The position numbers and the translations under genes are program-made. A stretch of 55,827 bases of DNA from an uncultured bacterium. Its GTDB lineage: Bacteria; Armatimonadota; HRBIN16. The stretch covers positions 1 through 55,827 of the forward strand of contig CALJAP010000144.1 in assembly GCA_938027655.1 (NCBI GenBank). Reading direction: 5' to 3'. The notes under the pieces are model-generated. The model saw only the letters and a program-made list of their open reading frames with translations. It searched no databases and had not been told where the DNA came from. Below are positions 10,001 through 28,688 of this stretch, piece after piece; positions within the stretch are counted from its first letter, which is position 1, and each line of letters starts with the position of its first letter.

Positions 10001-10070
10001 TGGAGGACGAACCCCCGGTGAGCCGAACATCTGCCCTCTCACACGGCTTGGCAGAAGCCTCGCGCTCCGG
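10001..10070. repeat. Inverted pair of family A intergenic repeats
   Basis: The forward copy at 10001-10031 reads TGGAGGACGA ... GTGAGCCGAACAT, and the inverted copy at 10043-10070 is the complement of a sequence close to GAGGCTTCTGCCAAGCCG. They match the better-conserved copies at 13800-13826 and 16355-16381 (core GAGGCTCCTGCCGAGCCG) and the inverted copy at 16389-16411. The pair lies between the glycosyltransferase and the dehydrogenase at 10150. Confidence 0.55.
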
Positions 10071-10149
10071 ACATGGGTTGCACCCTTGCAGGAACTTGCT
10101 GCGCCTCCTCGAAACAAGTAATCCTGTATACTCTTCGTGGAGGACATCG

Positions 10150-11313
10150 ATGGCAGAGAAGGTCACACTGGCAATAGTGGGCTGCGGGGGCATAGCAGGC
10201 GCGCACCGCGAGGGGCTGAGAAAACTGTGGGAAGCGGGCATCCGCGATTTCGAAGTCATCGCGACGGTAGATATCGACCGTTTGCGAGCCGAGAAGATGG
10301 CAGACGATCTGGCACAGTTTCAAGGCAAACGCCCCACGCCGTACCAGCAGCTGGAAGAGATGCTACGGGCGGAGAAGAACCTTGATGCGGTGGACATCTG
10401 CTCGGTGCACCGCAATCACCATTCGCTGGCTATCCCCTGCTTCCAAGCGGGCAAGCACGTGACTATTGAGAAACCGCTTGCGCTTACGCTGAAAGCAGGG
10501 CGACGGATGCTGGCGGCAGCGGCACAGGCTGGAACCGTGTTTCAGGTGGCGGAGAACTACCGCCGCGCTCCCGAACACCGCGCCATCCACTGGGCAGTTC
10601 GGCAGGGCGACATCGGCGAGATACGCATGATATTCTGGCTGGATGTGGGCGAGAGGCTGTGGTACTGGACCTGGCGCGAGCACCGTATGGACGCGGGCGG
10701 CGGATGGGTGCTGGATGGCGGCGTGCACTTCGCCGACCTGTTCCGCTACCACATAGGCGAGGTGGATACCGTTGCCGCGCGTTCACACGCTTTCCATCCC
10801 TATCGCTACGGCAAGCCGGAGACGCTGGAAGACCCCATTCCCGTGGATGTGGAGGACACCGTGATGGCAACGCTCACCTTCGAAAGCGGCGCGATGGGGC
10901 AGTGGACCTCCGTCTCCGCCGCGCCGGGAAAGGGCTTCAACCAGCGCATCCTATACGGCGAGCATGGCTCCATCGATTTCGGAAGCGGATTGAAAACACG
11001 CTCCGGGCGCGAAGAGAGCCTGCAGGAGATGGTGGCACGCTTCCGTAAGGCGATAGGCGAAGATGGCTGGGAGCAGATGTTCCCGCACGGCGTCACCGAC
11101 ACCATCGCTACTGAGCTATGGGAGTTCATTCAGGCGGTGCAGGGCAAGATGCCGGTGGAGATTGACGGGGTAGAGGGTTATAAGGACGAAGCCATCTGCA
11201 TGGCGGTATACGAATCCAGCTGGCTCAACGGCAGCACAGTGGTCGTTGCCGATGTGGAGTCCGGCGCGATTGCCAACTACCAGCGCGACCTTGACGAGGC
11301 GCTGGGATTGTAG
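10150..11313 (+). CDS. Gfo/Idh/MocA family NAD(P)-dependent sugar oxidoreductase
   Basis: A 387-residue cytoplasmic enzyme. The Rossmann fingerprint IVGCGGIAGAHR lies at 9-20 and the family signature EKPLAL at 107-112. The catalytic-type region WVLDGGVHFADLFRYHIG follows, as in many members. Start at 10150 is chosen for its GGAGGACATCG leader; a TATACT at 10127-10132 could be the -10 element but is too close to be certain. It likely oxidises or isomerises a pyranose, or handles a dehydro-sugar. The GH38 mannosidase begins 24 bases downstream on the same strand, so the two probably form an operon for mannose-containing glycans. Confidence 0.9.
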   Translation: MAEKVTLAIVGCGGIAGAHREGLRKLWEAGIRDFEVIATVDIDRLRAEKMADDLAQFQGKRPTPYQQLEEMLRAEKNLDAVDICSVHRNHHSLAIPCFQAGKHVTIEKPLALTLKAGRRMLAAAAQAGTVFQVAENYRRAPEHRAIHWAVRQGDIGEIRMIFWLDVGERLWYWTWREHRMDAGGGWVLDGGVHFADLFRYHIGEVDTVAARSHAFHPYRYGKPETLEDPIPVDVEDTVMATLTFESGAMGQWTSVSAAPGKGFNQRILYGEHGSIDFGSGLKTRSGREESLQEMVARFRKAIGEDGWEQMFPHGVTDTIATELWEFIQAVQGKMPVEIDGVEGYKDEAICMAVYESSWLNGSTVVVADVESGAIANYQRDLDEALGL

Positions 11314-11337
11314 CACGTGTTCAAGGAGGAAGCAGCC

Positions 11338-13770
11338 ATGACTCTCCATGCCATCGGCAATGCGCATATCGACCCCGTGTGGCTGTGGCGGTGGACGGAA
11401 GGACTGGAGACCATCCGCGCCACCTTCGCCAGCGTTCTGGAACGGATGAGGGAGTTTCCTGAGTTTCGCTTCACCGGCAGTTCGGCGGCGTTTTACTGGC
11501 TTCTGGAGCAGACCGACCCCGATATGCTTGCGGAGATTCGCCAGCGCGTGCACGAAGGACGTTGGGAACTGGTGGGCGGATGGTGGATTCAGCCCGATTG
11601 CAATATCCCGTGTGGCGAGTCCTTTGTCCGCCACGCGCTGGTTGGGCAACGCTACTTCCAGAAGACCTTCGGGGTCACCGCCACCGTCGGCTACAACCCC
11701 GACAGCTTCGGGCATGCGGGCACGCTACCGCAAATACTGCGCAAAGCAGGGTTGACACGCTACGTCTTTATGCGCCCCAGCCCGCACGAGAAAAGCCTGC
11801 CCGCCAACGTCTTCTGGTGGCAATCGCCCGACGGCTCGCGTGTGCTGGCGGCGCGAATCACCCGCTCCTACGCCACATGGGGCGAAGATCTGACACAGCA
11901 TGTAGAAGCCAGTGCAGAAGGCGCGCCTGATTTTCTGGATGACTACATCCTTTTCTATGGTGTGGGCAACCACGGTGGTGGTCCCACCATCCAGAATATC
12001 CGCTCGCTACAGCAGTTAGCGCAGGCTCCCCAAATGCGGGCGGTTCGCCTGAGCACCCTTGGAGCCTTCTTCGAGGCTGCGGAAGCACAGGCGGGGGCAG
12101 GTGCGCCCATCCCCGTCGTCGCCGAAGAGCTGCAACACCACGCGCGCGGCTGCTACACCGCCCACTCGGAAGTCAAGCGCCAGAACCGCCGCATCGAGCA
12201 TCTGCTGATGACCGCCGAGCGTGTGGCGTCGATGGCGTGGGCATTACTGGGACGCGAATACCCGCAACAGGCGCTTACTGAAGCGTGGCAGAGCGTGCTG
12301 TTCAACCAGTTCCATGACATTCTGGCGGGAACCAGCCTGCCCGAAGGTTACGAGGACGCCCGCGACCTGTACGGGCACGCCGCCGCGCTGGGCGGTTATG
12401 CTCTGCACACCAGCCTACAGGCGTTGGCGCGGCAGATAGACACGCGCGGGGAGGGTGCGCCGCTGTTAGTGTTCAACCCGTTGCCCTGGTGGGTGGTGGC
12501 TCCTGTTGAGGTAGAACGCGGTTCGGTGCAGCTGAGTGACGAAGAGGGCAACCCCGTGCCTGCGCAGGAGGTGCAGTCATCCACCGTGACGGGTCAGCAG
12601 CGCAGCGTGTTCGTGGTAGAACTGCCCCCGATGGGCTATCGCGTGCTGCGGGCGGATGCGCAGGTTGCCCCGTCTACTCCATCGGGTATGTTGCACGCCG
12701 AGGTCAACGACGAGGGCGCCTCACTGGAAAACGACTTCTGGCGGCTGGAGGTCAACACTGCAGGGCATCTTGCCCGCCTATACGACAAGCGCCATCGTGT
12801 GGAGGTGCTCTCTGCTCCTGCCAATATGGGCATCGTGCTGGACGACCCCAGCGACACCTGGAGCCACGATGTCGCCTCCTTCCGCAACGAGATAGGGCGT
12901 TTCGCAGGGGCGCAGCTGGCGATAGAAGAGCTGGGGAACGTGCGCGCCTGCCTGCGCATCGAGACCCGCTGGGGCAACTCGCGGATGATGCAGAGGCTCT
13001 ACCTGTACCGTGAGAGTGAGATTATCGAGTGTCGCGCTACAATCAACTGGCAGGAGCGGTACAAGATGCTCAAAATAGCCTTCCCCTTGCGCCTGCAGGA
13101 GCCTCGTGTGACCGCCGAATCGCCCTATGGTTTTACCGTACGCGAACCGGACGGTGGAGAGGAACCCTGCCAGCAGTGGGTGGACGTGTCGGGCTGGACG
13201 ACGGACGACAAGGACGAACGTATCCCCTATGGCTTTGCCCTGCTTAACGATAGCAAGTACGGCTATGACGCGCTGGGTTCCGAATTGCGCTTGAGCATTC
13301 TGCGCAGCCCTGCATACGCGCACCATGACCCGAGCAGGCTGGAACCGCAGAAGCGCTACCGGTACATCGATCAGGGAATGCAAACAGTCACCTACCGACT
13401 GGTTCCCCATGCAGGTAGTTGGCAGGAGGCGCACATTACGCGGCGCGCGTGGGAGCTGAACGTGCCGCCCGTCACTGTCAAGGAGTATATGCACAGGGGA
13501 GCTTTCCCACCAATAGCCTCCCTGCTGTATGTGGAACCGGAGAACGTATTGGTGACCGTCTGCAAAAAGGCAGAAGATGCCGATGCGCTGATTGTGCGAG
13601 CATACGAGAGCACCGGTAAGCCCTGCACCGCGCGAATCGAGATGCCTCTGGTCGGTATCCGGTGGGAAGCTCCTATCGGCGCGTGCGAGGTCAAGACATG
13701 GCGTATCGTGACGAGTGAACCGCCTGAGATTGTGGAGGTGAACCTCCTCGAAGGGGTGGAGGGTACGTAA
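11338..13770 (+). CDS. Alpha-mannosidase, glycoside hydrolase family 38
   Basis: An 810-residue enzyme that releases alpha-linked mannose using a zinc ion. The N-terminal domain starts with AIGNAHIDPVWLWRW, giving zinc ligands His10 and Asp12; GYNPDSFGHAGTLPQIL at 118-134 holds the nucleophile Asp122. A further ligand region is HHARGCYTAHSEVKRQ at about 270. The middle and C-terminal beta-sandwich domains are present at usual length. No signal peptide, so a cytoplasmic enzyme. AAGGAGG lies 10 bases before the ATG at 11338. It follows the dehydrogenase at 10150 and likely supplies its substrate. Confidence 0.93.
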   Translation: MTLHAIGNAHIDPVWLWRWTEGLETIRATFASVLERMREFPEFRFTGSSAAFYWLLEQTDPDMLAEIRQRVHEGRWELVGGWWIQPDCNIPCGESFVRHALVGQRYFQKTFGVTATVGYNPDSFGHAGTLPQILRKAGLTRYVFMRPSPHEKSLPANVFWWQSPDGSRVLAARITRSYATWGEDLTQHVEASAEGAPDFLDDYILFYGVGNHGGGPTIQNIRSLQQLAQAPQMRAVRLSTLGAFFEAAEAQAGAGAPIPVVAEELQHHARGCYTAHSEVKRQNRRIEHLLMTAERVASMAWALLGREYPQQALTEAWQSVLFNQFHDILAGTSLPEGYEDARDLYGHAAALGGYALHTSLQALARQIDTRGEGAPLLVFNPLPWWVVAPVEVERGSVQLSDEEGNPVPAQEVQSSTVTGQQRSVFVVELPPMGYRVLRADAQVAPSTPSGMLHAEVNDEGASLENDFWRLEVNTAGHLARLYDKRHRVEVLSAPANMGIVLDDPSDTWSHDVASFRNEIGRFAGAQLAIEELGNVRACLRIETRWGNSRMMQRLYLYRESEIIECRATINWQERYKMLKIAFPLRLQEPRVTAESPYGFTVREPDGGEEPCQQWVDVSGWTTDDKDERIPYGFALLNDSKYGYDALGSELRLSILRSPAYAHHDPSRLEPQKRYRYIDQGMQTVTYRLVPHAGSWQEAHITRRAWELNVPPVTVKEYMHRGAFPPIASLLYVEPENVLVTVCKKAEDADALIVRAYESTGKPCTARIEMPLVGIRWEAPIGACEVKTWRIVTSEPPEIVEVNLLEGVEGT

Positions 13771-13799
13771 CGCACGCCCCTCTGGGTGGTGTACCAACT

Positions 13800-13826
13800 T
13801 GGAGGGTGAGGCTCCTGCCGAGCCGT
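13800..13826 (+). repeat. Family A intergenic repeat
   Basis: Contains GAGGCTCCTGCCGAGCCG preceded by TGGAGGGT, nearly identical to the copy at 16355-16381. The core can fold as GGCTC/GAGCC. It sits between two convergent genes (stops at 13770 and 13839), where it might also act as a weak bidirectional terminator. Confidence 0.6.
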
Positions 13827-13838
13827 ATACATATCATC

Positions 13839-14594
13839 CTACCACTTTGTCGCCACGAAGAAGGCGCGGTCGGTGGTGGCGTTGGGGGGGCGCAGGGTGT
13901 AGGCGTGAAAGGTACGGGCGTAGTCGAACCCTGCGCGAAGTAGCATTTGCTTGATTTCCTCCAGCGGGTACGCTCTCTGGCGGTGCACTTCGGTGAAATG
14001 GTGGGTGATTTCTCCTTGCTCGTCGCGCAGCCAGAACTCCATTTCCACCGTGCAGAGTTTGCTCTCCTCATCGTATCGACTCTTCCAACGATAAAGCAAT
14101 CGCCGGCGCGAGCCGAGGTTGTCCTGGTCAAACAGCCCCTCGCGCAGGGCGTACTCGGTGTTGACGTCAAAAAGGAACGCCCCGCCCGATTGCAGATGGT
14201 TATACACCCTCTGGAACGCTTCCTGAAGTTTTTCGGGAGAGAGGATATAGTTCAGGCTGTCAAATAGGCTGAGCACGAGGTCAAACCGCTTCGACAGCTG
14301 CAGCTGCGATGCATCCTGCACCTCGTAACGGATGTCTAACCCTGCTTCCTGCGCCTTACGTTGTGCCTCCGCCACCATCGGTGCGGAGATGTCCACACCC
14401 CACACCTCGTAGCCCATCCTCGCCAGCCGCATCGCCACGTTGCCCGTGCCGCAGGCAAGGTCGAGGATGCTGCGCACCTTCAGGCGGTAGCGCTCTATCA
14501 ACTCATGCACATAGCGTACCCAGAAATCATAGGGCACATTGTGCATCAGTTCATCGTAATATGGGGCGATGAGCGTGAATGCAGCGTCGGACAT
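13839..14594 (-). CDS. Class I SAM-dependent methyltransferase
   Basis: A 251-residue cytoplasmic protein with motif I LDLACGTGNVAMRL at 44-57, the acidic end of strand 2 VWGVDISAP, and a motif IV-like LSLFDSLNYI. The N-terminal YYDELM resembles small-molecule methyltransferases (ubiE/Methyltransf_25 type). Target unknown. It lies 13 bases downstream of the DUF2442 gene on the same strand, which suggests co-transcription with the DUF4160/DUF2442 pair. Confidence 0.85.
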   Translation of the reverse strand: MSDAAFTLIAPYYDELMHNVPYDFWVRYVHELIERYRLKVRSILDLACGTGNVAMRLARMGYEVWGVDISAPMVAEAQRKAQEAGLDIRYEVQDASQLQLSKRFDLVLSLFDSLNYILSPEKLQEAFQRVYNHLQSGGAFLFDVNTEYALREGLFDQDNLGSRRRLLYRWKSRYDEESKLCTVEMEFWLRDEQGEITHHFTEVHRQRAYPLEEIKQMLLRAGFDYARTFHAYTLRPPNATTDRAFFVATKW

Positions 14595-14607
14595 GTCTCG
14601 ATACAGG

Positions 14608-14913
14608 TTACTCTGTTACTACACCGCGCGACGCCAACCAACGCCTCAGCGACTTTGTGCTTTCCCCGCTGGGGCGCCCCGCCAGTATCCCTTCGACGCC
14701 AATGTGCTCGTCGATGTCCGGCCACTCGATAGCGTACCCCCCACCCAGCAGCTGCCAACGCTGTCGCTCGGCAGGTGTAGCGTACAACAGGCGAGGATAC
14801 CACGCCAGCGGTACGGCAATCCGCCTGCCATCTAGCAGACGTACAATCAGGTCCTCTTCGGTCACCTCTACGTCTACAGCGAGAGGCTCGGTTTCAAGCG
14901 TCAAAGTACTCAT
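14608..14913 (-). CDS. DUF2442 domain protein
   Basis: A 101-residue protein. The region VEVTEEDLIVRLLDGRRIAV, then PLAWYPRL, A-x-PAERQRWQL and GYAIEWPDIDEHI is the recognisable DUF2442 pattern. The start at 14913 is supported by GGAGGCG, and it lies inside the preceding gene (20-base overlap), indicating translational coupling. Genes of this family very often sit directly next to DUF4160 genes, as here; a regulator or small toxin-antitoxin-like partnership has been suggested by such pairing but I cannot prove it from sequence. Confidence 0.85.
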   Translation of the reverse strand: MSTLTLETEPLAVDVEVTEEDLIVRLLDGRRIAVPLAWYPRLLYATPAERQRWQLLGGGYAIEWPDIDEHIGVEGILAGRPSGESTKSLRRWLASRGVVTE

Positions 14914-15130
14914 GCCACGCCTCCAGAAGTGTCTTTTCGTATTTGATAACAAGGCGGGTGATCTCGTTCAACTCGTGAGAAGCGAAGCCCCGGTTCTTCG
15001 CCAGTGTCACGGGCGCAAGCCAAAACTTGGCAATCTGCTTGTCACGCTTCACATGGATGTGTGGTGGCTCTCCCCTGTCGGAGCTAAAGAAGATGAAAGA
15101 GTAAGAACCTTCGACAAGTATCGTAGGCAT
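14894..15130 (-). CDS. DUF4160 domain protein
   Basis: A 78-residue protein starting MPTILVEGSYSF, with the diagnostic GEPPHIHVKRD (residues about 20-30) and AKFWLAPVTLA, then a helical tail ending LLEAWHEYF. The ATG at 15130 is preceded by GAGGGCAGAGGT. It is the first gene of a pair with DUF2442. Usual length for the family, so intact. Small enough that it may act on RNA or on its partner protein, but no function is established. Confidence 0.85.
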   Translation of the reverse strand: MPTILVEGSYSFIFFSSDRGEPPHIHVKRDKQIAKFWLAPVTLAKNRGFASHELNEITRLVIKYEKTLLEAWHEYFDA

Positions 15131-15299
15131 ACCTCTGCCCTCTATATGAAAGACATGGATTCGCCACGCCTCATCTCGCCCATAGTGTACACAAAATACC
15201 ACATTCTGTCCAGATTCCATCGCAACGACGCCCCAGAGGATTTGCCAGAGGGTAGACAGAACCCAACAATATGCAGAACAGAGACGAGGAGGCAGAGTA

Positions 15300-16313
15300 A
15301 TGGCACAAGCAGCACAACGCAGGCTCCCCGCGGCGACGCCTCAGAAGCTGCCGCGATGGCGTGGCTTTAACCTGCTCAATAAGTTTCATCGCGACTGGAA
15401 CAGCCGACCGTTTCACGAACAGGACTTCGCATGGATTGCCGAACTGGGCTTTAACTTCGTGCGCTTGCCGATGGACTACCGGTGCTGGACGGAGCCTTCG
15501 GACTGGACGAAACTGCGCGAAGAGGTGCTGAAAGAGATCGACGCGGCAGTGCGGTACGGGCAGAAGCACAGGGTGCATGTATGCATTAACTTCCACCGCG
15601 CGCCCGGCTATACGGTCGCCTCGCCGCCGGAGCCGAAATCGCTGTGGACGGATGCCGAGGCATTGAAGGTGTGCTGTATGCACTGGGCACACTTCGCCAA
15701 ACGTTATAAGGGCATTCCCAACAGCCAGATCAGCTTCAATCTGTTCAACGAACCTGCCGGTGTAGATGCCCCAACACATCGCAGGGTGGTAGAGCGCGTG
15801 GTAGAGGCTATTCGCGAGCAGGACCCCGACCGCCTCATCATCTGCGACGGTCTGAATTGGGCACGAGCACCCATTGAGGAACTGGTAGGACTGAAAGTGG
15901 CTGGCGCAACGCGCGGTTACGACCCCTTTGTCATCTCCCACTATAAGGCGAGCTGGGTGCAGGGTTCCGACAAATGGCCTGAACCCACCTATCCCTGGCG
16001 CGAGGGCAGCACCGTGTGGGACAGGCAGACGATATGGGAGCGCATCTACAAGCCCTGGAAGGAGCTGGAGAAAAAAGGCGTCGGCGTGATGATCGGCGAG
16101 TTCGGCGCGCATAATCAAACCCCGCACAGGGTGGTTATCGCCTGGCTGCGCGACCTGCTGAGCCTCTGGAAGGAAGCGGGTTGGGGCTGGGCGATGTGGA
16201 ACTTCTACGGCTCGTTTGGACCGGTGGACAGCGGACGTGCCGACGTGCGCTATGAGGAATGGCGTGGGCATAAGCTGGACCGCGAGATGCTGGAGCTACT
16301 GCAATCGATGTAG
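15300..16313 (+). CDS. Glycoside hydrolase family 5-like enzyme
   Basis: A 337-residue protein without signal peptide. It shows the clan GH-A pattern: WRGFNLLNKF near the start, NFVRLPMDYR at 52-61, HVCINFHRAPGY at 93-104, SFNLFNEPAG with Glu151 as acid/base, and GVMIGEFGAHN with Glu267 as nucleophile, followed by GWAMWNFYGSFG. GAGGAGG lies 10 bases before the ATG at 15300. It is divergent from the DUF4160 pair with about 170 bases between. It probably cleaves short beta-glucans or mannans taken up into the cell. Confidence 0.88.
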   Translation: MAQAAQRRLPAATPQKLPRWRGFNLLNKFHRDWNSRPFHEQDFAWIAELGFNFVRLPMDYRCWTEPSDWTKLREEVLKEIDAAVRYGQKHRVHVCINFHRAPGYTVASPPEPKSLWTDAEALKVCCMHWAHFAKRYKGIPNSQISFNLFNEPAGVDAPTHRRVVERVVEAIREQDPDRLIICDGLNWARAPIEELVGLKVAGATRGYDPFVISHYKASWVQGSDKWPEPTYPWREGSTVWDRQTIWERIYKPWKELEKKGVGVMIGEFGAHNQTPHRVVIAWLRDLLSLWKEAGWGWAMWNFYGSFGPVDSGRADVRYEEWRGHKLDREMLELLQSM

Positions 16314-16354
16314 CCTTGCGCTGAGATGTTAACGGTTGCTGAGGTTCATCCCTC

Positions 16355-16411
16355 TGGAGGGCGAGGCTCCTGCCGAGCCGTCGGCACGCGATGTTCGGCT
16401 CACAGGAGCCT
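16355..16411. repeat. Inverted pair of family A intergenic repeats
   Basis: Forward copy 16355-16381 (TGGAGGGC then GAGGCTCCTGCCGAGCCG) and inverted copy 16389-16411 (GATGTTCGGCTCACAGGAGCC), seven bases apart. The inverted half resembles the complement of the forward copy at 10011-10031. Lies between the convergent GH5-like (stop 16313) and alkaline phosphatase (stop 16419) genes. Confidence 0.6.
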
Positions 16412-16418
16412 GTTCTAT

Positions 16419-17918
16419 CTATGCCCAGTGCACGGGGCGTACGCGCGGCGCACGAGCAAGGTATCGCTTCGCCTGTTCTGGTGTCATCTCCGGGTTGCGG
16501 AAGGAGATACCGGTCAGCTTTAGCATCCGGTGAAACGCCTCCTTGTGCGGCTGAATGCCTGCAAACATCTCCTTGCCTGCCCCCAGAGCGGTCACCAGTG
16601 TCCAGTCGCTCGTGTGCTGGGTGCCAATCCACGCCACACCGTTGTAGTTGGACAGCACCTCGCCCAGAACGCCCACCAGATTCGCATGGGCGCGGTTCAG
16701 CGCAGGAGCCGGCTTTCCACTGGCAACACCGGCGATAACATCCGCCTCCTCGCGTGTGATTTCGATGCCCGTTACCTCGCGGACTGCCTCGCGCACCTTG
16801 TCGGGCGTGGGCGCGCCCGCCTGCTTCAGCAGCTCCTGAATAGCCACGTACGAACCTTTTGCCTGGGCGATTCGCTCCAAGCACTTTGTGCTGTCGCGGT
16901 ACTCCTCGCCCATGCCGTTTAAGCCGGGGTTGGAGTTGCCGTGGTCGCTGGTAACCACCAGCAGGGTGTCGGGATGCCTGCGCACGAAGTCTACCGCTAC
17001 CGCGATGGCGTCATCAAACGCCAGCTGGTCCCACAATACTCCGGCCGCATCGTTGGAATGCGCTGCATGGTCTACGCGCCCGCCCTCAATCTGCAACAGG
17101 AAGCCCTTCGGTGAGCGCGACAGGATTTCCAGCGCGACCCGCGCCATCTCCGCCAGCGTGGGTACCTGATCCCAGAGCTGAGGGGTATTCCTGTGGTCGA
17201 CGGTGTACGGCACATGCCCATTGTAGAACAGCCCAAGCACCTTCTCCGGTCGCTCGCGCCCCTGCACCTGCTCGCGCCTCTCCCAGAATGTATAACCTTT
17301 ACGCCGGTATTCGGCAATCAGGTCGCGCTTGTCTGAGCGCAGTTGGGGGTCAAAGAACCGCCTGCCACCTCCCATTAACACATCTACCACATCCGCATAC
17401 TGCTCGGCGATAATGTGCTCGTCGTCTCGGCTACGGTGCGAGGCAGCGAAACCGGCGGGAGTGGCGTGGGTGATGGTGGTCGTGGTCACCAGACCGACCT
17501 TCTTGCCCGCCCGGCGCATGACGTGCGCGAGTGGGGTGAGCTTTGTGCCGTCGGGCAGGACGTTCACCGCCCCGTTGAACACGCGCGAGCCGCTGCCCCA
17601 TGCACTGCTCGCTGCCGAGGAGTCGGTCACCAGCGAATCGAGAGAGCTGGTCTCAAACAACCCGACGACCGCCTCGGGGTCTTGCAGCAATCGGAACCAA
17701 TGTGTGCCCTTGCCCCGAGCCATCTGCGAAAACGGTTCCGCCATCGACGGCACGCCCATGCTCATGCCGTCAGAGACCATGAAGATGATGCTCTTTGGCG
17801 CACGCGACACACGGGAACGTCCCTGCGCCGATGCCTCGCGCAGCAACAGCCCACTGCCGACCAGTGCCGCCGCTCCAGCCTGCAACAGTTCCCGCCGTGA
17901 AAGCTCTGAAGGTGTCAT
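16419..17918 (-). CDS. Alkaline phosphatase, Tat-exported
   Basis: A 499-residue metalloenzyme that hydrolyses phosphomonoesters outside the cytoplasm. The N-terminus has a twin-arginine signal, LSRRELLQAGAAAL, ending near ASAQG. Catalytic features: IIFMVSDGMSMG, VTDSSAASSAWGSG (the nucleophilic serine), VTSDHGNSNPG for metal binding, and IEGGRVDHAAHSND. Length matches the family. GGGGAGG lies before the ATG at 17918, with a TATAAT -10 at 17970-17975. The single-gene unit suggests phosphate-responsive control, but no Pho box is evident. Confidence 0.93.
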   Translation of the reverse strand: MTPSELSRRELLQAGAAALVGSGLLLREASAQGRSRVSRAPKSIIFMVSDGMSMGVPSMAEPFSQMARGKGTHWFRLLQDPEAVVGLFETSSLDSLVTDSSAASSAWGSGSRVFNGAVNVLPDGTKLTPLAHVMRRAGKKVGLVTTTTITHATPAGFAASHRSRDDEHIIAEQYADVVDVLMGGGRRFFDPQLRSDKRDLIAEYRRKGYTFWERREQVQGRERPEKVLGLFYNGHVPYTVDHRNTPQLWDQVPTLAEMARVALEILSRSPKGFLLQIEGGRVDHAAHSNDAAGVLWDQLAFDDAIAVAVDFVRRHPDTLLVVTSDHGNSNPGLNGMGEEYRDSTKCLERIAQAKGSYVAIQELLKQAGAPTPDKVREAVREVTGIEITREEADVIAGVASGKPAPALNRAHANLVGVLGEVLSNYNGVAWIGTQHTSDWTLVTALGAGKEMFAGIQPHKEAFHRMLKLTGISFRNPEMTPEQAKRYLARAPRVRPVHWA

Positions 17919-17969
17919 GTGCTTCCTCCCCTGTTGTGTGCATATCTTTGTGATTACCCGGTTACCCTC

Positions 17970-17975
17970 ATTATA
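17970..17975 (-). promoter_or_regulatory. -10 element for the alkaline phosphatase gene
   Basis: TATAAT on the reverse strand 52 bases before the ATG at 17918. No good -35 hexamer at 16-18 bases upstream, which is compatible with an activator-dependent promoter. Confidence 0.5.
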
Positions 17976-18012
17976 CCTTCACGCGATGTTAAGGTTATGT
18001 AAACGCGCTTTG

Positions 18013-18225
18013 ATGGTCATTCACACCGGCAAGACCGTTGCCAATGTGGACGACCCCAAAGCCTGCCGCACCAAACTGGCGGCGAAGACCGACGCCCAGA
18101 ACATCCTGAACGAATGGGATATGGGCTGGCATCGGGTGACGGTGTACGGCGACTGGCGCAGGCAGGCAATGCAGCTGGCGAGGCTGTACGGCATCACGGT
18201 AAACGAGGAGGACAAACCGGGGTAG
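18013..18225 (+). pseudogene. Gene remnant, C-terminal piece of a possible sugar isomerase
   Basis: A 70-residue open stretch from an ATG at 18013 (or 79 from 17986) with no ribosome site. It reads VIHTGKTVANVDDPKACRTK, then ILNEWDMGWHRVTVYGDWR and LARLYGITV. The GWHRVTVYGD block followed by LARLYGI resembles the extreme C-terminus of L-fucose/L-arabinose isomerase-like proteins, but I am not certain. It lies between the alkaline phosphatase promoter and the GH65 terminator, with no upstream coding sequence in any frame, so it appears to be the tail left by a deletion. Confidence 0.35.
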
Positions 18226-21353: not shown

Positions 21354-22444
21354 CGGTCGCGTACCCCGTACTTCTCAGCAGCATCGAGGTAGACCTTCAC
21401 GCCATCCGGCGGTAGGTCCCACGTGAGATGGTTGCCCACACAGAAGAAATAGCCGGGCATATCGCGCCCTACCTGCGCCATCTCACGCACCATCGCCTCT
21501 ATCGCCTCGCGGTCGTTGCTCATGATGACGCGATTATCGCCGCCTCCAAGCAGCACCTTATCGGGGTGTTTGCGGGCGAAGGCTTTCCAGTTGGTATAGG
21601 TTTCACAGAAGATGCCGTCCGCCCCACATGCCAGCACGTCGTCTGCCACCAGGTCTACATTGCCGTCGGAAACGAAGAATATCTTCTTGCCCGACGCCTT
21701 CAGGTAGCCCCAGAACTCCTCGTAATAGGGGTAGATGTTCTCGCGCAGCCACTTCGGCGAGAAGACCGGTCCCTGCCGGTGGCAGATGTCGTCGTGACTG
21801 GAGAAGACCTGCACGTCGGTGCTCGCCCACGCTCGAAACACCTTGCGCGAGATTTCGGCAAAGTCGCGTAATAGGCGTTTTGCCTCCTGCGGATAGCAGG
21901 CGGCCACTTCCAGCCACAGCTCCCAGCCAAAGGTGAGCAGAGGCCACATGAACAGCGTGTTGTAGAAATGCCCGATTTCCAGACAGAGGTCACCGTTGGC
22001 GGCGCGGTCGCGCTCTACCTGTTGCTGAAACCGCCTAGCCAGCTCCTCTTCCGGCGGTGAGAGGTCTATGCCGATGGGGTCCATCTCGCGGTAGTCCCAG
22101 TGCTCCAGCGGCTGATAGCGCAGCACGTCCTCCACCGACCGGAACCGATGTCCCCAGTCCCAGTGCCACGTGTGCCCCCAGCCCCAGCGTACGGTCTTAC
22201 GCCCCTGCACGTCCTCATACACCACGCCGTCTGGCGGGCGTGGCACAGGAGTATCTTCGAGAGGAAGCGTGTATAGGTCAATGGCGTAGCGTTCTACCAG
22301 TGCCTTCTGTGCCAGGCGCGGATGCTGCCAGGGGTCTATGCCGGTAATATACTCGATAGCATCCGGACAGGAGATGATTTCCCAGTGCGGGATGCGGTCG
22401 GTCATCTGCCCGTGAAACGCCTTCAGTGCACGTTCGCGATTCAT
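21350..22444 (-). CDS. Uroporphyrinogen decarboxylase-family protein, non-haem type
   Basis: A 364-residue TIM-barrel protein of the URO-D/MtaA superfamily: MNRERALKAFHGQMTDRIPHWE is the usual opening, and GYLKASGKKIFFVSDGNVD with LGGGDNRVIMSNDREAIEAMV near the end are typical of the non-haem branch. Such proteins often appear in sugar or methyl-transfer gene clusters, and their substrates are mostly unknown. It is the first gene of the GH65/beta-phosphoglucomutase unit, with ATGA overlap to the next gene. A role in handling the same sugar, for example modification or transfer, is inference only. Confidence 0.8.
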   Translation of the reverse strand: MNRERALKAFHGQMTDRIPHWEIISCPDAIEYITGIDPWQHPRLAQKALVERYAIDLYTLPLEDTPVPRPPDGVVYEDVQGRKTVRWGWGHTWHWDWGHRFRSVEDVLRYQPLEHWDYREMDPIGIDLSPPEEELARRFQQQVERDRAANGDLCLEIGHFYNTLFMWPLLTFGWELWLEVAACYPQEAKRLLRDFAEISRKVFRAWASTDVQVFSSHDDICHRQGPVFSPKWLRENIYPYYEEFWGYLKASGKKIFFVSDGNVDLVADDVLACGADGIFCETYTNWKAFARKHPDKVLLGGGDNRVIMSNDREAIEAMVREMAQVGRDMPGYFFCVGNHLTWDLPPDGVKVYLDAAEKYGVRDR

Positions 22445-22522
22445 GGTGGTCTTACCCCCTGCGGTTCGCTTCCTTCCAACGATATTGTAACCTGTAGAGG
22501 GGCAATTTGCCAGAGGCAGCTA

Positions 22523-22573
22523 CGCAGGCAGGGCTTGGTTTGCGAGGAACCGGCTTTAGCCGTCAGAGAGGGA
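22523..22573 (+). repeat. Dispersed intergenic repeat, family D, copy 2
   Basis: Contains GGCTTGGTTTG then GGAACCGGCTTTAGCCG, aligning with 511-560. The 274-base gap 22445-22718 that holds it also has CTCAGCATGACAAAATAGAT near 22640-22660, echoed by AACAAAATAGATTCA near 645. No gene is visible in this gap. Confidence 0.4.
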
Positions 22574-22718
22574 GGCGGGTAGCTGCGCGTGCAACGGGGG
22601 GAAGGATCTCGTTCTATCGCTACACCGAGGTGCTTCGCTAACGCTCAGCATGACAAAATAGATGCACCATACCTTTGATCAGAACATGTTTATCCCAAGG
22701 TTGGGGTGTGAGAGAATA

Positions 22719-23942
22719 CTACGCACCTCTCTCGTCCGCCTCCGGGCGCAGGGAGGGGAACAACGCAAGCAACACAATCCACAGGCTTGCCGCCACCGGC
22801 ATTGCCAGCAACATGCCCCAGATTCCGAACAGCTTCGCCCCCACAATCAGCGCGAAGATGCTGGCTATCGGATGTAAACCCACCGAACCGCCGACAATGC
22901 GCGGCACCAGCACCTGGTCGAACAGCGTGTTCACCGCTATCGCCGTGCCCACTACAACCAGCGTGTACTGCCAGGAATGCGCCGACACCGCAAACAACCA
23001 CAGTGCCTGCCCCTCTCCCCCAAAAAAGGCCACCAGCCCGGAGGTAACCGCTATCAACAGTGCTCCGATGTACGGAACCAGATACAGCAAACCTGCCAGC
23101 GTGCCCAGCACGATACTGTATCGCACCCCCAGAAGGGTAAAGACAACAGCCATCGTGATGCCGTACAGGATAGCTACCGTTGCCAGCCCCTTCAGATAAC
23201 CCGTCCACACCACGCCCAGCGCACGCAGCAGCACCAGAACAGAGGAACGTGAGCCTTCAGGAACCATCTCTATCAGCCGCTGGCGAATACGTGGCAGGTC
23301 CACCATCGCGAAGAAGGCGATAATCGGGATGAGCACCAGCCACAGCAGTTTGCCCACCAGCGAGCTGACATAGCCCAGCAGGTTGCTCATCCAGGCGGTT
23401 ACCTGCTTGTTAATCTCCTCCGAATAGCGATCCAACAGCTGCTGTGGATCTTCAGGCAAGTTCAGGCGTTGTAATGTGTCATGGTGGCGTTTGAGAAAAG
23501 GTTGTAGTTCCTGCTGGAACCAGTCATTGGCACCGCGGATATAGCCCGGCAGGTCTTTGATAAGTCCTTGTAGCTGCGCGACTATCAACGGCACCACATA
23601 CAGTAGCAGCGCCACTACCAGAAGCACGAAGGCGATAAACACCAGCACCGTCGCCATGCGACGTGAATAGCCGCGTCGCTCCAGAGCGCACAGCTGACCG
23701 TCCAGCAACCCGGCGATGGCAAAGGCAATCACGAAGGGCACCAGCACATCCGCCACGTAGTACAGAGCTGCCCCCACCACCAGCAGCACCACAACCCCCG
23801 CCCACGGGCGGATACGCAGTGGTAAGAGAGAGGGTAAATCTGCCTGTGCTTCGGTGAACAGAGCAGTGACATCGCCCGCCCGAGCACCGGGCGGGCGATG
23901 GGCTTCCACTGGCTCGCTACGCTTGCGATTGCTCTGGGGCAT
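22719..23942 (-). CDS. AI-2E/PerM family permease
   Basis: A 407-residue integral membrane protein. About eight hydrophobic segments occur in the order expected for the family, two near residues 50-80, others around 95-125, 205-230, and four in the C-terminal half; the conserved loop is the LLYLVPYIGALL region. Members have been proposed to export autoinducer or other small molecules, and some act in sodium-linked transport. The ATG at 23942 is preceded by GGAGAAC; the earlier in-frame GTG lies in the ribosome region. The start is inside the YtxH-like gene (26-base overlap), so it is translationally coupled to it. Confidence 0.87.
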   Translation of the reverse strand: MPQSNRKRSEPVEAHRPPGARAGDVTALFTEAQADLPSLLPLRIRPWAGVVVLLVVGAALYYVADVLVPFVIAFAIAGLLDGQLCALERRGYSRRMATVLVFIAFVLLVVALLLYVVPLIVAQLQGLIKDLPGYIRGANDWFQQELQPFLKRHHDTLQRLNLPEDPQQLLDRYSEEINKQVTAWMSNLLGYVSSLVGKLLWLVLIPIIAFFAMVDLPRIRQRLIEMVPEGSRSSVLVLLRALGVVWTGYLKGLATVAILYGITMAVVFTLLGVRYSIVLGTLAGLLYLVPYIGALLIAVTSGLVAFFGGEGQALWLFAVSAHSWQYTLVVVGTAIAVNTLFDQVLVPRIVGGSVGLHPIASIFALIVGAKLFGIWGMLLAMPVAASLWIVLLALFPSLRPEADERGA

Positions 23943-24201
23943 GTTCTCCAGCCTCAGCTGCCTCCTCACCAGCAGCCTTCTGGCGGATGGTCGATGCTAC
24001 CGTCTCCAGAGCCGGCTTGACACGGTGCGAGAGCTCGGAAACGCTCTCTTTCAGCTTCTCAATCGCCTTCGCCAGATCCTCACGGGTCTCCCGGCCCGAT
24101 TTGGGCGCCAGCAACAGCGCCACCACCGCTCCCACAATCGCGCCGATGCCAATCCCAGCCAGCACGCTCAACAAGACGCTGCGTTCCTCATTGTCCGACA
24201 T
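23917..24201 (-). CDS. YtxH-domain membrane-anchored protein
   Basis: A 94-residue protein: a membrane segment at about 9-31 (VLLSVLAGIGIGAIVGAVV), followed by LLAPKSGRETREDLA, the standard YtxH pattern, then an amphipathic helix and an acidic Glu/Ala-rich tail. The AGGAGG ribosome site precedes the ATG at 24201. YtxH proteins are often associated with a ytxG partner, as here (14-base overlap with the upstream gene). Function is unclear; stress-related in Bacillus. Confidence 0.88.
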   Translation of the reverse strand: MSDNEERSVLLSVLAGIGIGAIVGAVVALLLAPKSGRETREDLAKAIEKLKESVSELSHRVKPALETVASTIRQKAAGEEAAEAGEHAPEQSQA

Positions 24202-24811
24202 GGCTTTCTCCTCCTCTCTGTTCTTCTGATGTTTCCCCAGCAGGGGGTTCCTCCGAGTCTTTTGACCCCTCCGGTGGCGGTGGCGTTTCGGTCGGTCGCT
24301 CGCCTTTCAGAACCGCGTATCCCTTCCTCAGCGCCTCCATCCACACGCGCGGGCGCGATATGGGCGAAGCAGCTACCGATTTCACCGCCTGCGCCACCTT
24401 TTGGGGGTGGGTAACCGCGTCTACGACAGACAAAACGCGCTCGATACGTTCGATTTTCTCTACGAGGCTCTGCGCTACCTTCAGCAGATGTCGGATAGTC
24501 ACCAGCGCCTCGCGAGCCGATGGTATCACCTCGTCGCTCAGCGTTGCTCCTGCATCCTTCACCGCAGGCATCAGTGCAGTGCGCGTTTCGTTCAGGATGG
24601 TATCCGTCGTTTCCAGAACACGCTGAAGCTGGTTAATAGCCGGGGGCAACCCCTGAAGCGCGGGCAGCGCTTGCCCGCGCAGTTCCACAACGGTACGCTC
24701 CGCTTCGGCAACCGTGCGCCGCAAGCGTATTACCACGGGTATCAACAGCGCCAGCACGACAATCGCCAGCACAATCAATATCGCCACACCGAATTGAATC
24801 AACCCTTCCAT
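24188..24811 (-). CDS. YtxG-like DUF948 membrane protein
   Basis: A 207-residue protein with one N-terminal membrane helix (about 6-28), a long helical region (about 30-150, with many Leu/Val/Glu/Gln repeats and likely coiled coil), and a Pro/Glu-rich tail. This is the DUF948/YtxG layout, and the following ytxH-like gene supports it. It starts six bases after the mnmA stop, so the four genes mnmA, ytxG-like, ytxH-like and permease form an operon. Confidence 0.75.
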   Translation of the reverse strand: MEGLIQFGVAILIVLAIVVLALLIPVVIRLRRTVAEAERTVVELRGQALPALQGLPPAINQLQRVLETTDTILNETRTALMPAVKDAGATLSDEVIPSAREALVTIRHLLKVAQSLVEKIERIERVLSVVDAVTHPQKVAQAVKSVAASPISRPRVWMEALRKGYAVLKGERPTETPPPPEGSKDSEEPPAGETSEEQRGGESHVGQ

Positions 24812-24817
24812 CCTCTT

Positions 24818-25918
24818 TTACTCCAATCGCCTCGAAATCGTGCCTCCACCGACTACTACATCGCTGCAGTAAAACACCGCTGCCTGCCCCGGCGTAACCG
24901 CCCGCTGGGGTGAATCAAACTCCACCTCCACGCACGTAGGTACTGCCGTCGGGAAGATGGTCGCAGGCGCCTCAGGCATATTGTAGCGAATCCGCGCCTG
25001 TACTGCAAGAGGCTTCGTTAATCTGTCAACCGCAATCCAGTTGACAGATTCCACCAGAAACCGTCGGCAGTAGAGATACTGCTCCGGTCCGATCACCACC
25101 ACGTTGTTCTGGGGATCAATATCCACCACATACAGCGGTTGCTGATGCCCGGAGAGCCCCAGCCCGCGTCGCTGTCCGATGGTGAAAAAGGCGATGCCCG
25201 GATGCCTGCCCAGCACGTTGCCATGCACATCGCGTATCTCGCCCGGGCGCACGGTGTCGGGCACGCGGCTCTGCAGGAAGGCACGGTAACCTCCCGCCTC
25301 AGCGACGAAGCAAATCTCCTGGCTGTCGGGTTTGTCGGCAACGGGCAAGCCCAGCTCCCTCGCCAGCGCGCGCGTTTCGGTCTTGCTGGGCAGTTCGCCT
25401 AGAGGAAACAGCGTGCGCGCCAGCTGCGCTTGCGTCATCGGGAAAAGCACGTAGGACTGGTCCTTCTCGCGGTTGACCGCCTTCAGCAGGAGCCATCGCC
25501 CGGTATCCTCGTCGCGGCGAATACGCGCGTAGTGCCCGGTAGCGATGAACTGTGCGCCCAGCTCGTCCGCCTTTTGCAGGAAGGCGTCGAACTTCACATA
25601 CCGGTTGCACTGCACGCAGGGGTTGGGTGTGCGCCCGCGCCGGTACTCCTCGATGAAGTCGGCAATGACCGTCTGCGCGAACTGCTTGCGGAAGTTGAGC
25701 ACATAGTGTGGTATTCCCAGCATCTTCGCCACGCGGCGGGCATCCACCACCGCCCCCAGCGAGCAGCAACCGCTGTGGCGCGGGTCGGTCTGGCTCTCCT
25801 GCCAGATTTGCAGGGTGATTCCTACCACCTCGTAGCCCTGTCGAACCAGCAGAGCCGCCGCCACCGAACTGTCCACGCCGCCGCTCATCGCCACGGCGAC
25901 CAGGGGCTTTTTTGCCAT
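24818..25918 (-). CDS. mnmA: tRNA-specific 2-thiouridylase MnmA
   Basis: A 366-residue cytoplasmic enzyme that thiolates U34 of Lys, Glu and Gln tRNAs using a persulfide. PP-loop VAMSGGVDSSVAAALL at 8-23; catalytic Cys101 in PNPCVQCNRYVKF; second catalytic Cys about residue 199 in SQEICFV; FFTIGQRRGLG in the C-terminal part. Usual length. It starts the operon that continues with the YtxG/YtxH/permease genes, and shares a promoter region with a TATAAT at 25938-25943. Confidence 0.96.
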   Translation of the reverse strand: MAKKPLVAVAMSGGVDSSVAAALLVRQGYEVVGITLQIWQESQTDPRHSGCCSLGAVVDARRVAKMLGIPHYVLNFRKQFAQTVIADFIEEYRRGRTPNPCVQCNRYVKFDAFLQKADELGAQFIATGHYARIRRDEDTGRWLLLKAVNREKDQSYVLFPMTQAQLARTLFPLGELPSKTETRALARELGLPVADKPDSQEICFVAEAGGYRAFLQSRVPDTVRPGEIRDVHGNVLGRHPGIAFFTIGQRRGLGLSGHQQPLYVVDIDPQNNVVVIGPEQYLYCRRFLVESVNWIAVDRLTKPLAVQARIRYNMPEAPATIFPTAVPTCVEVEFDSPQRAVTPGQAAVFYCSDVVVGGGTISRRLE

Positions 25919-25937
25919 TGCTCATCCCTCCACGCCG

Positions 25938-25965
25938 ATTATACCCGTTTTCAGAGGGCGAGCAA
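25938..25965 (-). promoter_or_regulatory. Promoter candidate for mnmA
   Basis: TTGCTC, 16 bases, TATAAT (25938-25943) on the reverse strand, 20 bases before the mnmA ATG. It overlaps the end of holB. The -10 is perfect; the -35 is weak. Confidence 0.45.
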
Positions 25966-27066
25966 GCGCATCATGAGCACCTCAGTTGCCAGCTGCACGT
26001 TCGCGTTGCCTTCCACCGCCCGGCGCACGTCCAGCACCGTGTCCAGCGCGTGCATCAACCTCTCCACGCCCATATTCTCTGCGGCACGACTCAGCCGCTG
26101 TTCGTCGCCCTGATAGACGATACCGCCGAGGTCACCTCCGCACGCTACCCACAGCGCATCGCGGAACCAAGCGCATAGAGCATCCATTGCCAGCAACAGC
26201 GCGCCGCGCGTGGGGTTCTTACTCTTTGCTGGGGCTTCTACAGAGGGTTCGCCTTCCTCCGAAATGTCCACCGTCGCCAGCGAGCGCAACCTTTCCGCAA
26301 GAAGCAGGGCAGGAGCGGGTGTCTGCGCCCCCGACACGGTGTATGCGAGGTCCGCCAGCGCGTCCCACACCCTTAACGCCTGGGGCTGGGTTGCCAGCGA
26401 CCATGCCCTGCCAGGGCACCCCTGCGACAGGAGCGCGCACCGATGAGCCACCTCAGGCTCCACTCCATGCTGTGCCGTCAGCCACTGGCGGATGGTGTCC
26501 GCGTCCACAGGATACAAAGGAACCCACTGACAGCGCGAGCGAATGGTCTCTATCACATCCTCCGGCATCGGTGCAAGCAGTAGGAAGACCGCATACGGCG
26601 GCGGCTCCTCTACCGTCTTGAGCAGGCTGTTGGCAGCGGCTTCGGTCAGCGTATCCGCGCGTGTGAGGATGTATACGGTTCGCCTGCCGAAGCTGGGGGC
26701 GAAGTTTATCGTGCGCCCGATGACACCCACCTGATGCGCCTTCGCCTCGCGGGGCACGTTGTGCCCATCCCAGAGCTGCCAGATAAGCGTTTGCTCCGAA
26801 TAGGGGACAATCGTGTGGATTTCAGGGTGCGCGTCATGTATCAGACGACGACAGCTCTCACACTCCCCACAGGCTTCCCCCTCCGGCGTGGGGGTCAGGC
26901 AGGCGAGCGCGGCCGCGAAGGCATGTGCTACACTATGCTTTCCCACACCTGCCATGCCGGTGAACAGGTAAGCGTGCGCCACGTCGCCTGTAGCCACCGC
27001 GCGACGCAACAGACGCAGCGCGGTCTGATGTCCCACAATTTGCGAAAAAAATATCGGTAAAACCAT
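25951..27066 (-). CDS. holB: DNA polymerase III subunit delta'-like clamp-loader protein
   Basis: A 371-residue AAA+ protein. The ATG at 27066 is chosen because the upstream in-frame stretch is repeat sequence. QIVGHQTALRLL and AHAYLFTGMAGVGKHSVAHAF (Walker A) are at the N-terminus, and the zinc-type cluster CGECESCRRLIHDAHPE follows. TLTEAAANSLLKTVEEPP is the usual sensor-I/SRC-like region. HolB helps load the sliding clamp. The lack of a long C-terminal extension argues against DnaX. The ribosome site is weak. Confidence 0.85.
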   Translation of the reverse strand: MVLPIFFSQIVGHQTALRLLRRAVATGDVAHAYLFTGMAGVGKHSVAHAFAAALACLTPTPEGEACGECESCRRLIHDAHPEIHTIVPYSEQTLIWQLWDGHNVPREAKAHQVGVIGRTINFAPSFGRRTVYILTRADTLTEAAANSLLKTVEEPPPYAVFLLLAPMPEDVIETIRSRCQWVPLYPVDADTIRQWLTAQHGVEPEVAHRCALLSQGCPGRAWSLATQPQALRVWDALADLAYTVSGAQTPAPALLLAERLRSLATVDISEEGEPSVEAPAKSKNPTRGALLLAMDALCAWFRDALWVACGGDLGGIVYQGDEQRLSRAAENMGVERLMHALDTVLDVRRAVEGNANVQLATEVLMMRLLAL

Positions 27067-27073
27067 TGTATTA

Positions 27074-27107
27074 CACTCTGTAGCCGCAGGCTTCAGCCTG
27101 CGCAAAG
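27074..27107 (+). repeat. Family B palindromic repeat, copy 1
   Basis: Core CGCAGGCTTCAGCCTGCG is a perfect 8-bp hairpin with a two-base loop (27085-27092/27095-27102), flanked by CACTCTGTAGC and CAAAG. The copy at 28564-28597 differs by one base. It lies directly upstream of holB. Confidence 0.75.
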
Positions 27108-27128
27108 AACTTTGAACCTCTCCCCCCG

Positions 27129-27222
27129 CCCCTCTCCTACAAGCAGAGGGGAGCCGATTCCCCCTTTCCTTCGGACGGAAGGGGGTTAGGTTCAACTCCC
27201 CTCTCCGACAAAGAGAGGGGAG
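27129..27222. repeat. Three successive hairpins
   Basis: Stem 1 CCCCTCT/AGAGGGG (27129-27135/27145-27151); stem 2 CCCCCTT/AAGGGGG (27160-27166/27179-27185); stem 3 CTCCCCTCTC/GAGAGGGGAG (27196-27205/27213-27222), the last 10 bp and perfect. They lie in the 192-base gap between the dehydrogenase (stop 27259, reverse strand) and holB, and may terminate the dehydrogenase transcript, but there are no strong T-runs. Confidence 0.55.
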
Positions 27223-27258
27223 CCGGTTTCCCCTTTTTCAAAGTTCATCAGGTTACAG

Positions 27259-28539
27259 CTACACCAGCGGCGTCTTGCCCGGTATTGCCACCGGGTCCAC
27301 CGGCATCTCGCCGAACTCCTTGATGTCCTTCACCAGATTCAGTTTGGACTCCTTCAGCGCGAAGTCCCACGTGACCTCCTGACCGGTATATGCCGCCATG
27401 CGCCCCATGATGGCGGTGAGGGTGCTCAGTGCGACCTGCTCGCCTTCGTTCAACGGTTTGCCCTCGCGGATGCTGTGAATGAGGTCGGCGTGCTCCTGCA
27501 CATACGGATTGTTACCGCCCTCATTGCGCCACTGAACCTTGCCTCGTATCCAGCCCGCGGGGTCGGCGACTCCCTCCGTACCGATCACATATTCGCTCAC
27601 TCGGTTGGCGCATCCGTCGATCTGACGGCACATGCTCAGCACGCGCACGCCGCCCGGATACTCATATTCGATGGCGAAGTGGTCGTAGATGTGACCGTAC
27701 GCCGGGTCGGTGCGCACCTGCCGCCCACCCATGCCCACACACTTCACCGGATACGCCTGCATGACCCAGTTGATGACGTCTAGGTTGTGGATGTGCTGCT
27801 CCACAATGTGGTCACCGGAGAGCCAGGTGAAGTACAGCCAGTTGCGAATCTGCCATTCGATATCGCTCATGCCCGGCTGACGGTCCCATTTCCACAGACC
27901 GCCCTGGTTCCAGTAGCACTGCGCCGCCACGATTTTGCCGATTGCCCCGTCGTGGATACGCTTGATGGTCTCGATGTAGCCCTTCTGGTGTCTGCGCTGG
28001 GTACCGGCAACCACACCCAGTCCCTTTTGCTTTGCCAGGTTTGCCGCCTCTAGCACCATACGCACGCCAGCGGGACACACCGCGACGGGTTTCTCCATGA
28101 ACACATGCTTGCCCGCCTCTACTGCTGCTCTAAAGTGAATGGGGCGGAAGCCGGGTGGTGTGGCAAGAATCACCATGTCCACACCGCTCTGCATCACCTT
28201 CAGGTAGTTGTCAAACCCCCAGAAGACGCGCTCTCTGGTCACCTTGAATCGGTCGCCAAGGTTCTGCAGGTTATTAAACGCGCCCTCCGCGCGGTCCTGG
28301 AACAGGTCGCCCAGCGCCCAGATTTCCACGTTCGGCGCGGCGTTTACCGCATCACGAGCGGCTCCTGTGCCACGCCCGCCACAGCCGACCACGCCCACGC
28401 GAATACGGTCGCTGCCCTGTGCCCAGGCGTAGTTCCAGCCCAGCACACCCGATGCCAGCGCTACGGTGCTTGCACCCAGCGATGTTTTCAGAAAGTCTCT
28501 CCGCGTGAGATTCTTCTCCGAACGACGATGTTCAGCCAT
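27259..28539 (-). CDS. Tat-signal Gfo/Idh/MocA oxidoreductase, copy 1
   Basis: A 426-residue protein. Twin-arginine signal LTRRDFLKTSLGAS at 11-24, hydrophobic core, and cleavage near WAQGS. Then the Rossmann motif VGVVGCGGRGTGAAR and EKPVAVCP, followed by the NWLYFTWLSGDHIVEQHIHN segment that is typical of this subfamily. So it is probably a periplasmic or surface-located NAD(P)-binding enzyme, or it carries its cofactor through Tat. Ribosome site GGGAGGT before the ATG at 28539. It is adjacent to a closely similar second copy (28695-29966), which suggests duplication. Confidence 0.9.
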   Translation of the reverse strand: MAEHRRSEKNLTRRDFLKTSLGASTVALASGVLGWNYAWAQGSDRIRVGVVGCGGRGTGAARDAVNAAPNVEIWALGDLFQDRAEGAFNNLQNLGDRFKVTRERVFWGFDNYLKVMQSGVDMVILATPPGFRPIHFRAAVEAGKHVFMEKPVAVCPAGVRMVLEAANLAKQKGLGVVAGTQRRHQKGYIETIKRIHDGAIGKIVAAQCYWNQGGLWKWDRQPGMSDIEWQIRNWLYFTWLSGDHIVEQHIHNLDVINWVMQAYPVKCVGMGGRQVRTDPAYGHIYDHFAIEYEYPGGVRVLSMCRQIDGCANRVSEYVIGTEGVADPAGWIRGKVQWRNEGGNNPYVQEHADLIHSIREGKPLNEGEQVALSTLTAIMGRMAAYTGQEVTWDFALKESKLNLVKDIKEFGEMPVDPVAIPGKTPLV

Positions 28540-28563
28540 TGGTGATACCTCCCTGTATATCTG

Positions 28564-28688
28564 CACTCTGTAGCCGCAGGCTTTAGCCTGCGCAAAGGAC
28601 GACGCAACCTGAAGGTTGCGGCTACGGCTCGTTAGGAGCCTCGCCATCCACGTAAGAGCACTGGAGGGTCGCGCTCCGTCGCGACCAG
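28564..28688. repeat. Mosaic of families B, A and C in one intergenic gap
   Basis: Four short elements lie end to end: family B (28564-28597); a hairpin GCAACCT/AGGTTGC (28604-28619); an inverted family A copy (28626-28652, complement of GGCGAGGCTCCTAACGAGCC); and family C (28662-28688, complement includes CGCGACGGAGCGCG). The gap is between the two tandem Tat dehydrogenases, reverse strand. Confidence 0.7.

Follow-up and report, generated by a model that had tools for sequence, protein, structure and literature searches.

A dispersed GGAG-footed hairpin repeat with the anatomy of REP elements, and a RAYT-type transposase flanked by it, in Armatimonadota

To our knowledge, the recognition of REPs by RAYTs and the choice of the cut site have been studied in only three REPtrons, all of them GTAG. 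The published REP feet are GTAG or GTGG, that is GT[AG]G (PMC6006769, PMC3733652). The repeat analysed here, referred to as family A, resembles the Y and Z REPs of Escherichia coli and their transposase TnpA-REP (RayT, PDB 4ER8) in having a foot and an imperfect hairpin with a mismatch in the stem, and it shares with the E. coli REPtron the inverted pairs, the tandem BIMEs, the intergenic dispersal and a Y1 HUH gene lying between inverted copies. However, the foot of family A is GGAG where that of E. coli is GTAG, and its stem is interrupted by a tandem GA/GA mismatch where the E. coli REPs have an AA/GC bulge. The GTAG-tagged superfamily (24 families; Di Nocera et al. 2013, PMC3733652) is likewise made up of short palindromes, tagged at one end by unpaired bases, that occur as dimers and groups, mostly downstream of genes, but its tags are GTAG, GYAG, GYRG, GTRG, GTMG and GTGG, and GGAG is absent from them. 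The REPINs of Pseudomonas fluorescens (Bertels and Rainey 2011, PMC3116915) also consist of two inverted REPs with a short spacer and are accompanied by a single-copy RAYT. They differ from family A in two respects, namely that Pseudomonas REPs have GTGG/GTAG-type feet, and that the A1 form of family A has as its partner either A2, a sibling distinct from it, or a further family, B, while many A1 copies are solitary. The transposase associated with family A, RAYT-A, is like TnpA-Y1 class 2 (Quentin et al. 2018, PMC6006769) in its length of approximately 158 aa and in its motifs (HUH with D-H-[VIL]-H, WQ and Y...NP), though that survey gives GT[AG]G as the canonical foot and the foot that goes with RAYT-A is GGAG. 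A literature search covering mainly open-access papers found nothing relevant on GGAG feet or on the repeat sequence itself.

The window, i.e. the whole stretch of 55,827 nt that was analysed, includes four matches to the family A core at ≤3 mismatches, where 0.15 are expected and none of 100 shuffled sequences reached four. When the sibling form A2 is counted alongside these four A1 copies the total is six, which bears out the six copies in gaps that had been reported from the sequence-only reading, and all six are intergenic. Two of them appear to lie inside ORFs, but in the ORF at 10018 the Pfam match starts only at residue 51, and in the ORF ending at 28647 only at residue 82; because these matches begin 50 to 80 residues in, both overlaps are artefacts of upstream start codons. 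The two inverted pairs noted in the same reading are both real (10002-10068 and 16356-16418) and each combines A1 with A2, but the spacing given for them, 7-12 bases, was too short, the actual distances being 18 and 15 nt. The REPs found in the window are as follows.

10002..10025, + strand: A2-type REP GGAGGACGAACCCCCGGTGAGCCG, one base shorter, first arm of an inverted pair.
10044..10068, - strand: A1-type REP GGAGCGCGAGGCTTCTGCCAAGCCG, with 3 mismatches, forming the other arm of the inverted pair with the 10002..10025 copy, 18 nt away.
13801..13825, + strand: A1 REP GGAGGGTGAGGCTCCTGCCGAGCCG, solitary, in the convergent gap between an alpha-mannosidase-like GH38 gene (+) and a methyltransferase gene (-).
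16356..16380, + strand: A1 REP, exact consensus, in the convergent gap between a GH5 cellulase-like gene (+) and an alkaline phosphatase gene (-).
16396..16418, - strand: half-degenerate A2 REP, partner of the 16356 copy across a gap of 15 nt, the typical A1-A2 geometry.
28570..28625, both strands: inverted pair of family C, GTAGCCGCAGGCTTTAGCCTGCGC (+) and GTAGCCGCAACCTTCAGGTTGCGT (-), GTAG-footed, belonging to the RAYT on contig C120.
28625..28649, - strand: A1 REP GGATGGCGAGGCTCCTAACGAGCCG, 3 mismatches, within a composite REP cluster.
28663..28686, + strand: family B REP GGAGGGTCGCGCTCCGTCGCGACC, exact, also GGAG-footed.
41441..41464, - strand: family B REP, 2 mismatches.

Three REP families thus adjoin one another at 28570-28686, where the inverted C pair is followed first by a degenerate copy of A1 and then by B in exact form.

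The A1 unit is the 25-mer GGAGGGCGAGGCTCCTGCCGAGCCG, usually with CT before it and T after it, and is laid out as GGAG followed by the hairpin GGC-GA-GGC-TCCT-GCC-GA-GCC. Its sibling A2, GGAGGGCGAACCTGCCGGTGAGCCG (or the form with CTCCCGG), is found in all ten genomes of the genus and has an inner stem altered in a compensatory manner relative to that of A1. Both are predicted to fold identically, as ....(((..(((....)))..)))., with an unpaired GGAG foot, a GGC/GCC outer stem, the GA/GA tandem mismatch, an inner stem of 3 bp and a loop of 4 nt. Each position of the foot is retained in 66-67 of 73 copies in the genome from which the window comes (hereafter the source genome) even though it is unpaired, and CT stands directly before GGAG in 22 of the 54 copies with an intact foot. 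Covariation was assessed in eleven A-type variants, most of them taken from sequence next to RAYT genes. Bases pair in 98.5 % of stem cells, and both sides vary in four of the six pairs, while shifting the partners by one base lowers pairing to about a third. As the eleven sequences were chosen by hand, these values support the structure and are not a census. An inverted partner lies within 110 nt of 22 of the 73 A1 copies, downstream in 21 of the 22 and of the A2 type in 20 of those, with an A1-A2 spacing of mostly 10-19 nt in the source genome. In the sister species G003, A1 alternates with inverted copies of family B, another GGAG-footed hairpin, in tandem arrays with a period of 71-72 nt. 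Family A is, with high confidence, a family of REP elements, occurring singly or as pairs (BIMEs/REPINs), that has been spread by a RAYT.

G003, which belongs to the same genus, encodes on its contig C2 an intact Y1 protein of 158 aa, RAYT-A, flanked by an exact A1 on one side and by an inverted A1 with 1 mismatch on the other. RAYT-A has the HUH motif as PDHVH and the catalytic-Tyr motif as YVRLNP, and is homologous to the E. coli TnpA-REP of PDB 4ER8 (E 1e-9). A RAYT 54 % identical to it is found in G040, from another family of the phylum, again between inverted A1 copies (1 and 4 mismatches). With the G003 protein as query, a decayed homologue (60 % identity over 118 residues) was detected on contig C99 of the source genome; its N-terminal part is in another frame with stops, there is a TAG near the end, and inverted A1 copies are present on both flanks. 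The suggestion, made from the window alone, of a REP/BIME element mobilised by a RAYT-type transposase is supported by these Y1 genes with the core in their flanks, intact in two genomes and broken in the third. Family A was almost certainly copied by this RAYT, which is now broken in the source genome and intact in the sister species and, since the cognate gene is a pseudogene in the source genome, expansion of family A there is probably over. The only intact gene recovered from the source genome with the Pfam Y1_Tnp model (PF01797) is on contig C120 (36934-37416) and is flanked not by family A but by GTAG-footed family C, GTAGCCGCAGGCTTTAGCCTGCG and its inverse. Taken alone, this match suggested that family A had no RAYT, a reading overturned by the broken RAYT-A on C99. 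The C120 RAYT carries an FYDH recognition segment.

What sets family A apart from a routine REP family is the GGAG foot together with a matching residue change in its RAYT. Where the tetranucleotide of a REP would be GTAG or GTGG, that of family A is GGAG, and GTAG belongs to the separate family C. Nevertheless, GGAG was counted as a variant and not as grounds for exclusion because it is the GGAG form that flanks the RAYT gene itself. GGAG accompanies RAYT-A and its close relatives; in the same phylum, more distant relatives have GTAG at that position. Feet were called mechanically from the inverted hairpins on both flanks, blind to the protein, and only then compared with the aligned protein, using E. 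coli residue numbers taken from the 4ER8 alignment. With strict calls, a His at 99/101 is absent from all 28 GGAG RAYTs and present in all 13 GTAG RAYTs. Five second-ranked calls were then added, from loci where the top call was shifted (GAGG at four, GCGG at one) and a GGAG or GTAG call was available at the same hairpin, and in the resulting set of 46 RAYTs the His is absent from 32 of 32 with GGAG and present in 14 of 14 with GTAG. Trp occupies position 99 in 30 of the 32 GGAG RAYTs versus one of the 14 GTAG RAYTs, and His occupies position 101 in none of the former versus 12 of the latter; E. coli TnpA-REP, which is GTAG, has W99, E100 and H101, and RAYT-A has W99-D100-T101. The region at approximately 94-104 of E. 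coli TnpA-REP is reported to contact GTAG, H101 included (PMC6006769; PMC8266576). Two GTAG-footed RAYTs, L321 and L327, have His at 99 and Arg in place of His at 101, which is possibly an alternative way of reading the T.

Judged from these alignments, a changed reading of the guide in the RAYT-A clade is likely. A broader proposal, towards which we lean slightly, is that GGAG REPs, together with their RAYTs, constitute a guide class of their own, in which an altered contact segment (W99, His101 missing, polar 102) would let the enzyme read G instead of T at the second guide position, and that this change may have arisen more than once; the class would span Armatimonadota-like, Planctomycetota, Verrucomicrobiota/Kiritimatiellota and other genomes. 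The principal competing explanation is that GGAG is no guide but just the best-conserved edge of the repeat, and that the differences at 99, 101 and 102 mark clade membership. In a tree built without the contact columns, the foot and the residue each change three times, in the same places (3/3), and the two to three independent foot/residue pairs are all concordant, but only two of the three changes are on well-supported branches. Hence, with only about three independent switches the association is suggestive and not proven; the Fisher test on it is uncorrected, and a sign test cannot reach significance with three. Columns far from the contact region, e.g. residues 53, 56 and 87 of RAYT-A, also separate the two sets, as clade markers would. 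Against this, GGAG occupies the exact position of GTAG in the sister clade (GGAGGGC... vs GTAGGGC...), foot and residues switch together, and 99-102 fall within the stretch of the E. coli enzyme for which GTAG contacts, including one by H101, are reported (PMC6006769). We therefore regard clade membership as a possible but rather unlikely explanation. Since the GGAG RAYTs have a GTAG sister clade from which they differ at only a few contact residues, guide recognition becomes directly testable.

If GGAG is the guide, RAYT (TnpA-REP, a Y1 HUH single-strand nuclease) would fold onto one strand of the hairpin and read the foot. We infer that catalysis would follow with a cut beside the foot, probably at the CT dinucleotide often preceding GGAG, and the released REP or REP pair would be joined to new single-stranded DNA, so that copies spread through intergenic space.

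The source genome (3.53 Mb in 219 contigs) contains 103 copies (48 + 55) of the 18-mer core at ≤2 mismatches, and none was found in the reversed-sequence control. Family A is, as expected of a REP, a short palindromic repeat of high copy number. Fetched surroundings were available for 73 distinct copies and, with genes called by a home-made codon model and not taken from curated annotation, at most seven of these copies are within predicted genes and 66 are intergenic, in loci that are 84 % coding (p ~1e-43); two of the seven are the start-codon artefacts in the window. Confinement of the core to the window, or its occurrence inside genes as often as between them, had been named as results that would speak against a mobile element, and neither was seen. 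The genes on either side are co-directional for 34 copies, convergent for 18 and divergent for five, and nine copies are at contig or locus edges, a distribution of neighbours that matches the pattern described for REPs (PMC3733652). Five loci of the source genome (L005, L009, L016, L019 and L023) have a longer repeat, TTAGCCCCCCTGTCGTCCCCCCGCAAGCAGGGGGAG..., directly 3' of A1 and the same in all five copies, so that A1 seems to be fused to another dispersed repeat there. About eleven source-genome copies have GAGGCTCCGTCCGAGCCG, in which an inner stem pair is broken and which resembles a hybrid of A1 and B (CTCCGTC).

Family A was found in all ten genomes of the genus, again with no match in the reversed control. 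A1 copies are most numerous in G003, the sole genome of the ten whose RAYT-A is intact, with 191 at ≤2 mismatches, of which 88 (46 %) are exact. The corresponding numbers for the source genome are 79 and 18 (23 %), and in the other genomes of the genus 6-27 % of A1 copies are exact, except in G005, which is without RAYT-A and has seven exact copies out of 16. Because most of the genomes are rich in A1 copies and have no detectable RAYT-A, copy number within the genus does not follow the presence of the RAYT, and decay after loss of RAYT-A would explain the copy-rich genomes that are without it. Orthologous sites differ in occupancy. The 13801 site is filled in G003, G004 and G006 and empty in G001, G005 and G008; in each of the latter three the gap, bounded by the same two genes, was aligned from either side. 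The 16356 site is filled in G003 only and is without family A in G001, G002, G004, G006 and G009, the orthologous gap in G009 being occupied by family B. The empty orthologous sites that were examined gave no base-exact insertion boundary. These distributions are consistent with A1 having inserted as the genus diversified and with the enzyme having been lost later in most lineages, and a genus with intact, broken and missing RAYTs offers a natural series for the ageing of a REP population after loss of its transposase.

The position of most copies downstream of genes is also what would be expected if the hairpins were intrinsic terminators or mRNA-stabilizing 3' elements kept for an RNA function, with dispersal by RAYT incidental, and a transcriptional element had been offered as an alternative from the window sequence. 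As terminators the repeats find no support, since a run of T follows the hairpin in only one of 73 copies on each strand and the predicted energy, near -5 kcal/mol (z ~-0.4), is weak for a terminator. An RNA function in general is at odds with the conservation of an unpaired foot and with the empty orthologous sites in sister species, and the window has no Rfam match above the gathering score. We consider an RNA role very improbable as the reason for the repeats. Though dispersed, multicopy and partly in inverted pairs, the repeats are hardly conceivable as fragments or MITEs of a classical DD(E/D) transposon, as the genes between inverted copies encode Y1/HUH proteins with HUH and Y...NP motifs and the repeat itself is a hairpin plus foot.

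REP elements dispersed by a RAYT, the reading preferred here, are not confined to this genus. When one genome per GTDB species was scanned for exact matches to the 25-mer, with C or T allowed at position 16, at least 119 stretches were found to contain it. Among the matches listed, these are largely from Planctomycetota, and also from Kiritimatiellota, Verrucomicrobiota, Acidobacteria and Hydrogenedentota, a MAG labelled Myxococcota and MAGs labelled Chthonomonas. A homologue of RAYT-A at E 1e-8 or better is present in 25 of 45 genomes among the 25-mer matches listed, and a dozen of the best homologues, 44-57 % identical to RAYT-A, have A1 or close variants in their flanks. A constant REP beside RAYTs whose identity has halved may reflect either transfer between phyla or strong constraint; the same 25-mer next to RAYTs approximately 50 % identical in different phyla raises the question of why it stays constant, or of how the pair moves. 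In an Isosphaera MAG (L264 and L276, G293:C40), a RAYT with A1-type flanks is split over two frames and is apparently frameshifted. A Fuerstiella MAG, a planctomycete (L105), has nine exact 25-mers within approximately 1 kb; they lie on both strands, are spaced in multiples of approximately 100-200 bases and form a tandem BIME array.
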